Part shown: positions 8,276 to 38,480 of the stretch, one piece after another
How the letters are laid out: the number at the start of each line of letters is the position of its first letter
Numbering within the stretch: position 1 is the first letter of the stretch
NCBI GenBank assembly: GCA_030403585.1
Contig: JAUEPE010000011.1
Coordinates: 62,001 to 126,000, forward strand
DNA from: Frankia sp. RB7
GTDB lineage: Bacteria > Pseudomonadota > Alphaproteobacteria > Rhizobiales > Xanthobacteraceae
Reading direction: 5' to 3'
DNA length: 64,000 nt
Made by a program: the position numbers and the translations under genes
The notes under the pieces: model-generated
The model's input: only the letters and a program-made list of their open reading frames with translations
Databases searched by the model: none
What the model was told of the DNA's origin: nothing

Positions 8276-11236
8276 ATGGCGAAGAAACCTGCTCCCCCAA
8301 AATCCCCGAAGTCCAAAGCCCCGAACTCGAAGGCACATCGGCCCGACGTGCAGCCGATCGGGCCGGCGCTGGCCGAATTGCTCAATCCCGCGATCAATCG
8401 CGGCGATGCCGGGCTCGGATCCGGCACCGGCCTGCAGCCGCCGCCGGACAATTCGCGTGACCGCCGCTCGGGGGGCGAGGCCGCCGCGCATCGCGCGCGC
8501 GCCTCGACGCCGAAAGAGTTTCCGCAGGATTCGACGCGACCGATGCCGCTGCGACCGAATCCGCAGCCGCCGGGGGCCCGGGAGAGTGCCGGCTTCGACG
8601 AGGCGCCGCAGGCCAATTACGGAACCGCGGCCACGATCCCGACGCTCGATCCGGAACTGGCGCGGCAACTCGGGATGCCGACCGAGGAGGACGACGCCGA
8701 GGCGCTGGCGCGGCCACCGCGGAACAAGATGGAAGCGCTCGGCGTCAAGGCGACCGCGGATGCGCTGGAATCGCTGATCCGCGAGGGCCGGCCCGAGTTC
8801 CGCAGGGATGACGGCTCCACAAAGGTGTGGACCCCGCATCGGCCGCCGCGCCCGGAAAAGTCCGAAGGCGGCGTGCGCTTCGAGCTCAAGTCCCACTATG
8901 AGCCGCGGGGCGATCAGCCGACCGCGATCAAGGAGTTGGTCGAGGGCATCGAGCGAAACGACCGTTCGCAGGTGCTGCTCGGCGTCACCGGCTCCGGCAA
9001 GACCTACACGATGGCGCAGGTGATCGAGAAGACGCAGCGTCCTGCCATCATCCTGGCGCCGAACAAGACGCTCGCCGCCCAGCTCTATGGCGAGTTCAAG
9101 AGCTTCTTCCCAGATAACGCAGTCGAGTATTTCGTCTCTTATTACGACTACTACCAGCCGGAAGCGTATGTCCCGCGCACCGACACCTATATCGAGAAGG
9201 ACTCGTCGATCAACGAGCAGATCGACCGCATGCGCCACTCGGCGACGCGCGCGCTGCTCGAACGCGACGATGTCATCATCGTCGCCTCGGTGTCCTGCAT
9301 CTACGGTATCGGCTCGGTCGAGACCTACACCGCGATGACGTTTGCGCTGAAGAAGGGCGAGCGCATCGACCAGCGCCAGCTCATCGCCGACCTCGTCGCG
9401 CTCCAGTACAAGCGCACGCAAGCTGATTTCACCCGCGGCACGTTCCGGGTGCGCGGCGACGTCATCGACATCTTCCCGGCGCACTATGAGGACCGGGCCT
9501 GGCGCGTGAACCTGTTCGGCGACACCATCGAAAATATCGAGGAATTCGATCCGCTCACCGGCCACAAGCAGGACGAGCTCGAATTCATCAAGATGTACGC
9601 CAATTCGCACTATGTGACGCCGCGCCCGACGCTGGTGCAGGCGATCAAGTCGATCAAATCCGAATTGAAGATGCGGCTCGACCAGCTTCACGACCAGGGC
9701 CGCCTACTCGAAGCGCAGCGGCTGGAGCAGCGCACCACCTTCGACCTCGAGATGATGGAGGCGACGGGAAGCTGCGCCGGCATCGAGAACTATTCGCGCT
9801 ATCTCACCGGGCGCCTGCCCGGCGAGCCGCCGCCGACGCTGTTCGAATACGTCCCCGACAACGCGCTGGTGTTCGCCGACGAAAGCCACGTCACGGTGCC
9901 GCAGATCGGCGGCATGTTCCGCGGCGACTTCCGCCGCAAGGCGACGCTGGCCGAATACGGCTTCCGTCTGCCCTCGTGCATGGACAACCGCCCGCTGCGC
10001 TTCGAGGAATGGGACATGATGCGGCCGCAGACGGTTGCGGTGTCGGCAACGCCGAGTGCCTGGGAGCTGAACGAAAGCGGTGGCGTGTTCGTCGAGCAGG
10101 TCATTCGTCCCACCGGACTTATCGATCCGCCCGTCAACATCCGCCCGGCCCGCACCCAGGTCGACGATCTCGTCGGCGAAGTCCGCGCCACGGCGCAGGC
10201 CGGCTACCGCTCGCTCGTCACCGTGCTGACGAAGCGCATGGCGGAGGATCTCACCGAATATCTGCACGAGCAGGGCATTCGCGTCCGCTACATGCACTCT
10301 GACATCGACACCATCGAGCGCATCGAGATCATCAGGGATCTCCGCCTCGGCGCCTTCGACGCGCTGGTCGGCATCAACCTGCTGCGCGAGGGCCTCGACA
10401 TCCCCGAATGCGCGCTGGTCGCGATCCTCGACGCCGACAAGGAAGGTTTTTTGCGCAGCGAGACCTCGCTGATCCAGACCATCGGCCGCGCCGCGCGCAA
10501 CGTCGACGGCAAGGTGATCCTCTATGCCGACCAGATGACGGGCTCGATGGAGCGCGCCATCGCGGAAACCAACCGCCGCCGCGAAAAGCAGGTCGAGTAC
10601 AACACGGAGCACGGCATCACGCCGGAGAGCGTGAAGAAGTCGATCGGCGACATCATGAACAGCGTTTACGAGCGCGACCATGTGCTGGTCGAAATCGGCG
10701 GTCACGACATGACCGACGACGTCATCTCGATCGGCCACAATTTCGAAGCCGTGCTCGCCGATCTCGAAACGCGTATGCGCGAGGCCGCAGCGGATTTGAA
10801 CTTCGAGGAAGCCGCCCGCCTCCGCGACGAAGTCAAGCGTCTGCGCGCGACGGAGCTTGCCGTGGTGGACGACCCCACCGTCAAGCAGCGCACCGTGCAG
10901 GGCAAGGCCGGCGCTTATACAGGCGCGAAGAAGTACGGCGACGCCGCCAACCTCCCGGTCAGCGCCATGAAAAAAAAGACCGTGAGCTCTGCGCTGAAAG
11001 CGAGCGGTGGAGGCGCTGGAAGCGGCTCGAAGGTGCACAAGCCGCATCTCGACGAGATGCACGGCCCGGAGTCGCTGCCCTACCGTGAGAACCAGAGCCT
11101 GCCCGCAAAGCCGTTCGGCAGCACCAGCCGGATTATCCAGCCGACGGATTCACGGCAGTCAGGGCCGGAGTTTGGGCCGGCGCCGAAGTCGACGGGTGGG
11201 ATGCCGGGGCGACGGGGTGGGTGGAAGAAGAGGTAG
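8276..11236 (+). CDS. uvrB: Excinuclease ABC subunit B, with extended N- and C-termini
   Basis: UvrB is the helicase-like damage verifier of nucleotide excision repair, working with UvrA and UvrC. The Walker A site GVTGSGKT is at residues 236-243. The beta-hairpin [20 protein letters not shown] follows. Helicase motif V/VI stretches [10 protein letters not shown] and QTIGRAARN are present, as is the C-terminal UVR motif ([16 protein letters not shown]) that binds UvrC. The protein has 986 residues against about 670 in E. coli. About 197 extra residues precede the core and are Pro/Arg/Ala-rich and probably disordered. A basic tail of about 110 residues follows the UVR motif. Confidence 0.97.
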
Positions 11237-11276
11237 GGCGCACTCTGCTTCACCAGCGGGTATTTAGACCAAACAG

Positions 11277-11780
11277 CTAACCGTCCTTTGCCTCTCGCTG
11301 CCACTTCCGTAGCGAGATCTTCCTATCCTCTTGCTCCATGATGAGTTCGGCCATACCGGACCCAGTGATCCAGTAGATAAAATCGACGGAGTTCATGTCG
11401 CGATCTTCATCATAGAATCCTCGAAAATCATCGAACAGCCAATCGTACGTATCATCGGGAAATCTATGCCATTCCCTCGAGTACCAGTGATCGGCGAGCC
11501 CGGAATGAAGCTGCCTTTCGAGGGAGCTGATTTCCCAAAACGGTTTGACCCCTACGATTTCCAGATCAGGCAGCCAAGTCTTTGCTTCTTTAAGAAGTCG
11601 TCGCGCGGGATTGACGGTCTTCCCCACTTTGAAGAGTGGGCCATTTCGTACGATGTACAGCCAGCCGGGATCGATAGGACGGACACCGAAAATCGCCAAG
11701 TTAGGACGAAAGGTACTGCATTTCTCGGCCATTTGAACGTTTGCCCTTTGAGAGGCGCGCGACTGAGTCGCGCGCCCCAT
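11277..11780 (-). CDS. T5orf172/Mug113-type GIY-YIG-like protein
   Basis: This is a 167-residue protein. GWLYIVRNGPLFKVGKT at about residues 39-55, followed by ARRLLKEAKTWLPDLEIV, fits the T5orf172/Mug113 branch of the GIY-YIG nuclease superfamily. The HSGLADHWYSREWHRF segment after it carries the later conserved Arg/Trp positions. Some members are nucleases, but activity of this one is not shown. The ATG at 11780 lies four bases after the stop of the upstream AIPR-like gene, suggesting coupling; an internal ATG at 11732 is also possible. Base composition is well below the genome norm, pointing to recent transfer with its partner. The gene is convergent with uvrB. Confidence 0.7.
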   Translation of the reverse strand: MGRATQSRASQRANVQMAEKCSTFRPNLAIFGVRPIDPGWLYIVRNGPLFKVGKTVNPARRLLKEAKTWLPDLEIVGVKPFWEISSLERQLHSGLADHWYSREWHRFPDDTYDWLFDDFRGFYDEDRDMNSVDFIYWITGSGMAELIMEQEDRKISLRKWQREAKDG

Positions 11781-11784
11781 CTTC

Positions 11785-13137
11785 CTACGCGGCTAGTTTG
11801 CTTCTCGACAGAGTCGCCTGGATCGTAGCGTCAGCAAACTCGTAGGCGCTGATATTTTTTCCGACCTTCTGAGGGTCAAACTGCGCCATCTCGACGACCA
11901 GCTTGTAGCTCTTCAAAATATCAGTGAGATGCCTCTTGAAGAAAACGCAAGGATCAACCTTCCAAGAAAGAAGACCGTCCTTTTGCTTAATCAGCGCACG
12001 AGCCCCATAAACCAGCGGCACTAAAAAGCCGTCGGGACAGGTGTAATTTACCGGGGTCCCAAAAAATGGGGTCGAGGGCTGACTCTTCAGATACTTTGGA
12101 TTCTTGTCCTTGGTCTTACTTGCGTCGAACATCTTGACCGCCCCGATACGACCGAAATGCCCGCCCGCCCGATTGTAAGCGTCCGGCAAATCGGCGTAGA
12201 GCTGATCATAAAGCTTCGGTAGTGTTGCCAACAACTCGAACGCGCTGTGAACTTGAGGGTTATGGAGTTGATGCGTGTAACCCTCAGCAGGCTCGGAAAC
12301 CTCATCATGCCCCATCAATTTGTTGAAGGCCTCAACACAAACCGCCTTGTTTCGATAGATCTGGTTTGGATTCACTCTTATTCCATCCGGCAGTTGCAGC
12401 ACTGAGAGGGGAATCCAAGCAAGCGCAATGAGATCTCTGACCTTGATCTCTCCGCCGGCATTCGTTTTCCATTCGATGTTGGCGGCTAGTTCAGACGGCA
12501 GAAGATCCCTGATTTCGTCGTAGTATCCCTTCTTCGCAGCCTTCGTCTCCTCGGTCAGTTGGACGTTATTGTTACGTGCTGCGCAAATATCGAGGAGCGA
12601 CGCGGTGAATTGCTCGACAACGTCAACGTCTCCCATATCGGCCGGCACTAGGAGTTCGACGGGTATGGTAAAGTCCAAGAGCTCCTTCACGGCCTCAATG
12701 CGTTCTCGATGCTCAACCCAGGCAGCCTTGAGGTCCTCCCAAGTCTTAATTGCCTTGAGGTCTTTCGCAGCAAGTCCCGCCTGCGAAAGAATGTAACAGC
12801 CGATGGCAAATGAATTGTGTCCGCCATCAAGAATGCCTTCAACCTCGCTATCCTCGAATTGCAACTCATACCGGTGGCGCTCTAACGCACGACAGCTTGC
12901 CGAGCCGAGCAATACGCCCTTTGTCTTGAACGGAAATAGGTCGGAATTTTCGGCGATGCTTTTCACAATCTCCGATGTGACGGAGCCAGACTTCGCAGAT
13001 CTGGGATTGGCCGAGAGATCGACAGCATCGAGAAGGGGGATGAAAGATTTTGCCGAGACAAATCCGACGACGCGAAGGACTGCCCCGCGACGCTGCTCTG
13101 CACAATCTTCGAATTTAAGGATTAGCTTTTTAGGCAT
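11785..13137 (-). CDS. Large protein resembling AIPR/DGQHR phage-resistance proteins
   Basis: This 450-residue protein has no sure family. Residues about 40-115 follow an AIPR-like layout. There is an SANPR motif, then VTSEIVKSIAENSDLFPFKTKG, then about 35 residues later EGILDGGHNSFAIGCYIL, which resembles the DGQHR or NGxQT motif of AIPR and DndB-like proteins. The rest is mixed alpha/beta without membrane segments. The ATG at 13137 has a GGAG site seven bases upstream. GC content is low: 26 of 60 bases at 12061-12120 and 31 of 60 at 12361-12420. It is co-oriented with the T5orf172-type gene. A defence role is inference. Confidence 0.55.
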   Translation of the reverse strand: MPKKLILKFEDCAEQRRGAVLRVVGFVSAKSFIPLLDAVDLSANPRSAKSGSVTSEIVKSIAENSDLFPFKTKGVLLGSASCRALERHRYELQFEDSEVEGILDGGHNSFAIGCYILSQAGLAAKDLKAIKTWEDLKAAWVEHRERIEAVKELLDFTIPVELLVPADMGDVDVVEQFTASLLDICAARNNNVQLTEETKAAKKGYYDEIRDLLPSELAANIEWKTNAGGEIKVRDLIALAWIPLSVLQLPDGIRVNPNQIYRNKAVCVEAFNKLMGHDEVSEPAEGYTHQLHNPQVHSAFELLATLPKLYDQLYADLPDAYNRAGGHFGRIGAVKMFDASKTKDKNPKYLKSQPSTPFFGTPVNYTCPDGFLVPLVYGARALIKQKDGLLSWKVDPCVFFKRHLTDILKSYKLVVEMAQFDPQKVGKNISAYEFADATIQATLSRSKLAA

Positions 13138-13188
13138 TTCAGTTCTCCATATTTGGAAAACTGACTTCGGACATAAGCCGGCATACCT

Positions 13189-13264
13189 GCGAAAATCTCT
13201 TCGCAAGCGAATGTTAGCTTTCCGAAGCCAGTCCTGGCTTCAAATCCGCCTTCCATCCGGAAGG
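13189..13264 (-). promoter_or_regulatory. Three consecutive inverted repeats upstream of the AIPR-like gene
   Basis: Three perfect short inverted repeats lie within 76 bases. They are tgcgaa-(6)-ttcgca at 13189-13206, gaagccag-tc-ctggcttc at 13224-13241, and ccttcc-atcc-ggaagg at 13249-13264. They sit 50-130 bases upstream of the AIPR-like start. They could be operators or a folded leader RNA. No clear sigma-70 boxes were recognised. The rest of the gap up to 13419 shows no other feature. Confidence 0.45.
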
Positions 13265-13419
13265 CTCCTATAGAGCACCATGAGATGCCGATTCGAGTCA
13301 ACGAGAACGTGAAGGTAATTGGGCTCGATCCTCGATTCAGTTTGCATCACTCAACGCGCGTTTCGGAAGAGGCTGAGGACCTCGTCGTACTCCGGAATGA
13401 CAAGGGGAGTTTTGCCCGC

Positions 13420-13806
13420 TCACCCCACGCTCGCCGTCACCACCGCCATCACCGACAGCAGCAGCACGATGGTCACGAGCTGCAGCGAGGCGACCGGGTG
13501 GGTGCGCCATGCGGTGATCTTGTCGGAGAGCGACAGGGTGCCATCGAAGAATTTGGGTTCGTAGAGCGTATTGCAGACGGCGGGGAAGCTCGGTCCCAGG
13601 GTCACCGCGAGCAACGCGTGGGCGAGCGAGGCCACGGCGACAAAGATGGCGACGCCGGGGTCGCCGACGAGGTCTTGGTTGCCGCACAGTTTGAGCAACA
13701 GCGCGGCTGCGGCGAAGGTCGGGAAACTCTGCAGCGTCGCGGTCAGCGCGATGCCTTCGAGCGCGTTGTGCAGGCGGGACTTTCTTGCGGCGGCGATGGC
13801 GGCCAT
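13420..13806 (-). CDS. Small hydrophobic membrane protein
   Basis: This 128-residue protein has three or four hydrophobic segments, including FPTFAAAALLLKLCG, GVAIFVAVASLAHALLAVTLG and the C-terminal LVTIVLLLSVMAVVTASVG. The family is not recognised. I chose ATG 13806 because GGGAG lies at good spacing. Composition returns to the GC-rich norm here, so this gene marks the right side of the low-GC insert. Confidence 0.65.
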   Translation of the reverse strand: MAAIAAARKSRLHNALEGIALTATLQSFPTFAAAALLLKLCGNQDLVGDPGVAIFVAVASLAHALLAVTLGPSFPAVCNTLYEPKFFDGTLSLSDKITAWRTHPVASLQLVTIVLLLSVMAVVTASVG

Positions 13807-13943
13807 GGCACGTCTCCCAGATGACATGCCGACGACGTTAGGTGTCGCGGGAGGCGCGCGATGTGAGGTGGGTCACGCCTTCAGGGACTGACTCTTGGGC
13901 GCGATAGATTCCGGGCGCGCTGTCGCGCGCCCGGAATGAGGGT

Positions 13944-37820: not shown

Positions 37821-37896
37821 GGCTTTCCTTCAAAGGACCAGAATCAGGGCATACGGAACGACAAACAGCCGCATCCTGCGATGCGTCTGCCACCGA

Positions 37897-38062
37897 CCGT
37901 TCTCTTTCATCCGGACTTTAACCGTCGGCTTCGGAGTTGCACCGAATCTGCTGACCCTTTCCTTTGGAGAAAATCCTTTTCAGGAAATCCCTCGGGGAAG
38001 GCGCTCGCGGGCTTAGGCCTTTCGGCCCTTACCGCCGGTGGGGACTTTCACCCCGCCCTGAG
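37897..38062 (-). promoter_or_regulatory. FMN riboswitch (RFN element)
   Basis: The RNA on the minus strand starts AGGGCGGGGTGAAAGTCCCC, then CCGGCGGTAA, an arm with GGCCGAAAGGCC, then GGGTCAGCAGATTCGGTG, then CCGAAGCCGACGGTTAAAG and TCCGGATGAAAGAGAACGG. These are the conserved joins of the RFN element, which binds FMN and turns off the gene. After it, CGCATC-GCAG-GATGCG at 37867-37885 is a short hairpin that may act as expression platform, close to the ribH start at 37820. Confidence 0.95.
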
Positions 38063-38480
38063 AACATCGGCCGTCCGGAATGAACGGCCTGAGCGGAAAT
38101 ATGACGCCGGTCCGGGGCCGCAGCAAGCGTGTTCCGCAGCAAAAAACTGCATGGTCCCATGCCGCTATGGGGGTGCCGCCCTCGCGGGGCGGAATTAACG
38201 ATTGGCGCGCGGTCCGGGAGTCCCGATTCCGATTTGTTCTTTTCGTTAATGATTGTGGCCGAGATGAGCTGTGGACGAACGAGTCCTGACTTGTGGACGG
38301 ACTCGGCAGCCGGTTGCGCAGATTCCGCAAATCACATCAGTTGATCCGCGACAAGCCCGCGCTGATCCCAGGATCGCAACAGCGACTCCCAAGGGATCGC
38401 CTTAACGACATGAGGGAAGCGCGCGCAGGACCAACCGCGTGCGTATCAAAGACAACAAAAAGGCAAGAGGTCGAGACGGC
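38063..38480. other. Long intergenic region with a GANTC cluster
   Basis: No gene was found in these 418 bases between the riboswitch and the YbjN-like gene. Six GANTC sites lie within 171 bases, at 38218, 38225, 38281, 38300, 38321 and 38384 (each five bases). GANTC is the target of the CcrM methylase in alphaproteobacteria. The ribosome site and promoter for the YbjN-like gene should be here. A gagatgagctgtggacg and cttgtggacgg direct repeat of gtggac is also visible. Confidence 0.5.

Follow-up and report, generated by a model that had tools for sequence, protein, structure and literature searches.

Two co-oriented genes of unusual base composition lie between uvrB and a small membrane gene in the window, by which we mean the whole stretch of 64,000 nucleotides analysed here, part of contig C7 of a 7.4-Mb genome (G000) whose genus we took as Bradyrhizobium. 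The question that this locus raises is whether the two genes form a single anti-phage system or were stacked there separately. A first-pass annotation made from the sequence had favoured the former, describing an AIPR- and DndB-like protein (here P1) paired with a T5orf172-type GIY-YIG nuclease (P2) in an unknown anti-phage or DNA-modification system.

The insert (11237-13391) runs from the uvrB stop codon to the remnant of a host intergenic element, CCGGAATGAC. Its borders are those originally proposed, namely uvrB on the left (8276-11236, plus strand), identified by its Pfam UvrB domains, and on the right a small host-type membrane gene (13420-13827, minus strand) that has no Pfam match and is kept beside uvrB in relatives. 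The GC content is 0.519 at 11237-13383, compared with 0.641 for the whole window, and the local count of 26 of 60 bases at 12061-12120, on which the claim of low GC had been based, is exact. Among all stretches of 2147 bp in the window, the one with the lowest GC begins at 11222, and outside it no value falls below 0.610; the insert is the only markedly low-GC stretch within the window. The third-position GC content of its genes is 0.59, against about 0.85 in the neighbouring genes, and relatives have empty sites at the same position, all of which indicates a horizontal origin. We found no direct repeat at the insert flanks, saw no integrase and detected no tRNA anywhere in the window, and a prophage, a tRNA-linked island or a transposon was therefore rejected. 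P1 (450 residues from its ATG) occupies 11785-13137 and P2 lies downstream of it, both on the minus strand. The region upstream of P1 (13138-13391, minus strand) contains two 18-bp hairpins, GCCTTCCGGATGGAAGGC and GAAGCCAGGACTGGCTTC; it presumably also contains the P1 promoter, and a search for a sigma-70 consensus there found none. Elsewhere in the window, an FMN riboswitch (RF00050) at 37895-38069 on the minus strand was the sole Rfam match.

Searched as a single sequence, P1 returned nothing useful from Pfam, PADLOC, NCBIfam or PHROGs, with all scores below the library thresholds and no Pfam match to the AIPR family (PF10592) at an E value of 1. Its relatives were more informative. Those at 44–54% identity scored 15–17 bits against PF10592 (gathering cut-off 25), and nine of ten aligned members of the P1 family matched PF10592 at an E value of 1 or better. 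In tblastn searches against plasmids, P1 recovered four Roseomonas plasmid copies (53% identity) and one from Subdoligranulum (43%), together with annotated AIPR proteins on Firmicutes plasmids at 21–25% identity over 82–92% of P1, with E values down to 6e-16. An alignment of ten sequences, including four AIPR proteins, kept the NPR and DGGH motifs in all ten, and a search of BFVD with the P1 model identified an AIPR protein (E value 3.3e-6, TM scores 0.50/0.59). From this homology over the family core, P1 is classified as a divergent AIPR-family protein that scores below the curated Pfam cut-off, in agreement with the family named in the first-pass annotation. P1 shares with the AIPR/AbiU1 family, which includes MzaE of mzaABCDE, both motifs, a similar length and alignment over the full length, but differs from annotated AIPR proteins in its identity of only about 20–25%, its position below the Pfam cut-off, its lack of a conserved RX4-6H motif and its often solitary occurrence.

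The P1 sequence is laid out as an N-terminal domain (residues ~15-194), containing NPR at 44-46 and DGGHN at 104-108, followed by a helical C-terminal part. The ANPR...DGGHN arrangement recognized at first inspection is real: R46, D104, G105, G106, H107 and N108 are invariant across 71 sequences, as are an RN-N motif and several further residues. Whereas a HEPN toxin domain has been reported for other AIPR proteins (PMC3506569), in the alignment of the 71 sequences no frequently occurring Arg is followed 5–7 residues later by a frequently occurring His, as the HEPN RX4-6H motif would require. The AlphaFold model of P1 is confident (pLDDT 95). The structural neighbours of residues 15-194 found with VIA include PadC (Z 6.2), Noc (5.3), SspE (5.2), pNOB8 ParB (5.1), Srx (4.8) and BrxU (3.8); the top 13 rows are all ParB, Srx or DUF262 proteins, at modest Z scores of 3.8–6.2 and with alignments of ~92–139 residues at 3.2–4.8 Å. 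A Foldseek search of P1 against the PDB gave nothing below an E value of 0.001, and PDB sequence searches with the P1 and P2 alignments gave chance matches only. The N-terminal domain of P1 is thus predicted, from its model, to adopt a ParB/sulfiredoxin-like fold, as in ParB, SspE and BrxU.

The proposed link to DndB and DGQHR proteins holds at the level of this fold only. P1 has in common with DndB/DGQHR proteins and with DUF262 proteins (SspE, DndI, BrxU) the predicted N-domain fold and a DG-rich motif, and SspE, DndI and DndB have been placed in a ParB-like superfamily (PMC11662687). Unlike them, however, P1 carries DGGHN rather than DGQHR or DGQQR, has no Pfam match to DndB/DGQHR (PF14072) or GmrSD_N, and lacks a fused nuclease.

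When genome contigs were scanned, P1 alone detected no relatives, whereas the P1 alignment detected 107, of which we kept 80, from public genomes of Pseudomonadota, Actinomycetota, Bacillota and other hosts. Many of these relatives are solitary low-GC genes amid unrelated core genes, and others reside in restriction-type operons in several phyla. In two genomes of the same genus (G041 and G072), P1 overlaps a gene for a 1048-residue PLD-helicase by 4 bases and is followed by a Type ISP methylase; PLD-helicase genes recur at 16 P1 loci and the methylase at 10, some of these loci being duplicates of one genome. Eco57I methylases lie beside P1 relatives at other loci, dndB adjoins one at L099 and an AlbA_2 gene adjoins one at L025. 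Frequent proximity to restriction-type genes is a trait that P1 shares with the AIPR family (PMC3506569, PMC2292703, PMC9523054). In two Bifidobacterium genomes (L083:3231-9392 and L094:3165-9392) a P1 relative shares one open frame with an upstream UvrD/PD-(D/E)XK helicase of AddA type, itself about 1600 residues long, and judged from the reading frame the two are possibly fused. The copies in Bradyrhizobium (that of the window, that of G008, and those of G041 and G072) branch at three distinct positions in the P1 tree, and repeated acquisition of the gene is therefore probable.

P2 had been drawn as its longest open reading frame, of 167 residues (11277-11780, minus strand), four bases from P1. 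An internal ATG at 11732 is preceded by AAAGGG, and conservation among P2 relatives begins near it; because the relatives align from there, this is probably the true start, giving a protein of 151 residues (11277-11732, minus strand). The co-orientation thus stands, but the gap to P1 is likely 52 bases rather than four. P2 matches the Pfam family MUG113 above its cut-off (27.7 bits against 22.3, E value 4.3e-6) and T5orf172 just below it (19.4 bits against 20, E value 0.0015), and its PHROG profile match is an endonuclease; PADLOC gave no match. Residues Y42, K51, G53, R61 and E88 (numbered on the 167-residue version) are invariant in the first P2 alignment and present in ten relatives. By analogy, these would be the catalytic Tyr, K-x-G, Arg and Glu of GIY-YIG enzymes, intact in P2. 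The evidence supports P2 as a predicted GIY-YIG nuclease of the MUG113/T5orf172 kind. A structural model built from its single sequence reached a pLDDT of only 36. The core Tyr, Arg and Glu are shared with the single-gene GIY-YIG defence nucleases CMoRE (PD-T4-3) and SNIPE (PMC12923530, PMC13190303), from which P2 differs in its length of only 151–167 residues, in having no recognised sensing domain and in its lack of a PADLOC match.

P2 is rare, occurring in 3 of 266 genomes of the genus and in 3 of 199 of the family. PtuA-like ATPase and HNH genes adjoin its relatives on three Rhizobiaceae plasmids. A homologous gene of 227–231 codons, with a weak PADLOC match to PDC-S64, lies near P2 relatives in G260 and G1022, overlapping the P2 start (L020, L218). 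ParB-like proteins with the motif VYDGNRR or VFDGNRR are encoded beside, and convergent with, P2 relatives in G1022, G891 and G360 (L218:6625-7962, L219:4708-6078 and L220:5803-7107). In G086 (L224) a P2 relative stands alone directly 3' of uvrA, and in G260 (L020) one lies a single gene away from uvrA; the ends of excision-repair genes (uvrA, and uvrB for the P2 of the window) may be favoured landing places.

Do P1 and P2 act together? One view is that they form a two-component system in which P1, through its ParB fold, senses foreign DNA and recruits or licenses the nuclease P2, much as DUF262 and HNH domains are combined within SspE and DndI. The two are co-oriented neighbours in one insert, fusions of ParB-fold sensors to nucleases are known, as in DndI (PMC11662687), and ParB-like DGNRR proteins are convergent with P2 relatives in three genomes. 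Against this, a P2-like gene is absent from all of ~84 other P1 loci, P1 is absent from all five P2 genomes examined, P2 is absent from all eleven genomes with a P1 relative, and in G086 P2 and a distant AIPR gene lie on different contigs; we found P1 and P2 together nowhere else. Nor are they a stable core pair, an explanation that we rejected because P1 is present in only 5 of 150 relatives' genomes (one of the five being a distant AIPR gene) and P2 in only 3 of 266. Furthermore, a perfect inverted repeat (11754-11776, minus strand; 23 bp, with 11-nt arms and a 1-nt centre), a terminator-like hairpin without a T run, directly follows the P1 stop codon and precedes the likely P2 start. An inverted repeat of the hairpin type follows P1 relatives at 31 of 84 loci, compared with 38 of 2,670 random sites; such an end is common for P1, as for many genes, and is not specific to it. 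The lack of shared loci or genomes elsewhere and the hairpin after the P1 stop lead us to favour two stacked genes and to regard a dedicated two-component system as unlikely. Some cooperation may nonetheless occur: ParB-like genes adjoin P2 relatives at three loci, a recurrence that suggests something beyond stacking by chance. An extension of this idea, which we put forward as a speculation and think quite unlikely, is that a small GIY-YIG nuclease and a ParB/sulfiredoxin-fold sensor, with either DGGHN or DGNRR, make up a modular defence of two parts that has gone unrecognised; the nuclease would be retained as one sensor replaces another, and the pair in the window would be one combination.

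The setting of the insert proved more telling than the pair. We searched 81 genomes for the anchors of the slot, the end of uvrB and the membrane gene, and found both on one contig in 37. The slot is empty in 18 of these (14–115 bp) and filled in 19 (0.9–5.3 kb), with no intermediate sizes, and its fillers are mostly low in GC. As a control we measured the gap beside ychF, and 3 of 67 genomes have more than 600 bp there; among the 31 genomes in which both could be compared, 14 uvrB slots and 2 ychF gaps exceed this width (Fisher p 0.001, with genome kinship ignored). A second control gap, beside prs, was dropped because gene order differs there.

Defence-type genes are present in 14 of the 19 filled slots. 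They encode DRT9 with an exonuclease (G069; profile E value 2e-156), an HD-CE protein with an ATPase (G077, with a fragment in G043), two DndB-type proteins with Dam and a HEPN match (G016), a NACHT protein with a poly(A)-polymerase-type protein (G029), nSTAND1 (G059), a DpnI-type mREase_II (G037; profile E value 2.7e-98) and, by close sequence similarity, further DpnI-type enzymes (G062, G065, G050 and G004), BglII with MT-A70-like and HNH proteins (G063), AIPR with MT-A70 (G056) and a DndB protein just below the cut-off (G018). No membrane gene was located in G003; the equivalent place there is occupied by DndB and an MT-A70-like protein. Given AIPR and DndB proteins in several slots, ParB-fold proteins are a recurrent cargo. 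The other five filled slots have no recognised defence gene, two being of unknown kind (G021, G079) and three GC-rich (G017, G078, G070). Conserved borders, empty and filled alleles and varied defence cargo make the slot 3' of uvrB a defence hotspot. The slot resembles cDHS1 and cDHS2 of Pseudomonas aeruginosa in its fixed core borders and varied defence cargo (PMC10250203), but differs in its borders (uvrB and the small membrane gene), in its cargo of 0.9–5.3 kb and in being empty in half of the genomes. We found no published uvrB or Bradyrhizobium hotspot in the open-access literature, which does not prove it unreported.

Because the same gap elsewhere holds varied defence genes, or nothing, P1 and P2 are very probably anti-phage genes. 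Of the original proposal, the acquired low-GC cargo and its defence setting are strongly supported, and both families had been named correctly from motifs, but the evidence does not bear out a fixed unit of two genes. In the reading that we consider probable, a chromosomal defence hotspot immediately 3' of uvrB in Bradyrhizobium carries the insert as cargo, and P1 and P2 are two separately mobile anti-phage genes stacked there, with no obligate partnership between them. The ParB/sulfiredoxin-fold domain of P1 would probably use its NPR and DGGHN motifs to bind NTP, as we infer from its fold kinship and from the reported binding of ATP and GTP by a DndB-like protein (PMC12704722). On meeting foreign or modified DNA, P1 would switch state and then either block phage growth or control a partner, while P2, to judge from its homology and setting, would cut invading DNA. 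DndI and SspE are precedents for a ParB-type switch (PMC11662687), and CMoRE and SNIPE for a GIY-YIG defence nuclease, P1 and P2 falling outside the full definition of each. Weighing against this reading are the modest VIA Z scores (4–6), the sub-threshold family scores of P1, the three loci at which P2 lies beside ParB-like genes and the five filled slots, three of them GC-rich, in which a defence gene was not recognised.

Alternatively, neither gene may be anti-phage: P1 could be an orphan regulator or anti-restriction protein on mobile DNA, akin to a DndB-like repressor, while P2 could be a GIY-YIG endonuclease of the selfish, homing type. DndB has been described as an ATP-dependent repressor (PMC12704722), P1 is often solitary, T5orf172 domains figure in homing-endonuclease studies (PMC10448857), and the P2 relative downstream of uvrA in G086 stands alone. 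Yet P2 relatives were absent from the phage records and viral contigs searched and several sit with defence genes, P1 occurs in restriction-type operons of several phyla, and the slot itself is dominated by defence genes; we judge this explanation very improbable.

The slot itself is the stronger finding. P1 represents a widespread AIPR subfamily of more than 100 relatives whose member in the window was missed by four family libraries. No defence function is assigned here to several slot fillers: a 906-residue protein that combines an HD-CE domain with an HSP90-like ATPase domain (L188:276-2993), itself a candidate defence gene, and proteins of 408 and 347 residues in the uvrB slots of G021 and G079 (L193:251-1474 and L198:413-1453). 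The uvrB slot is thus a simple and testable place in which to seek more immune genes of nitrogen-fixing Bradyrhizobium.
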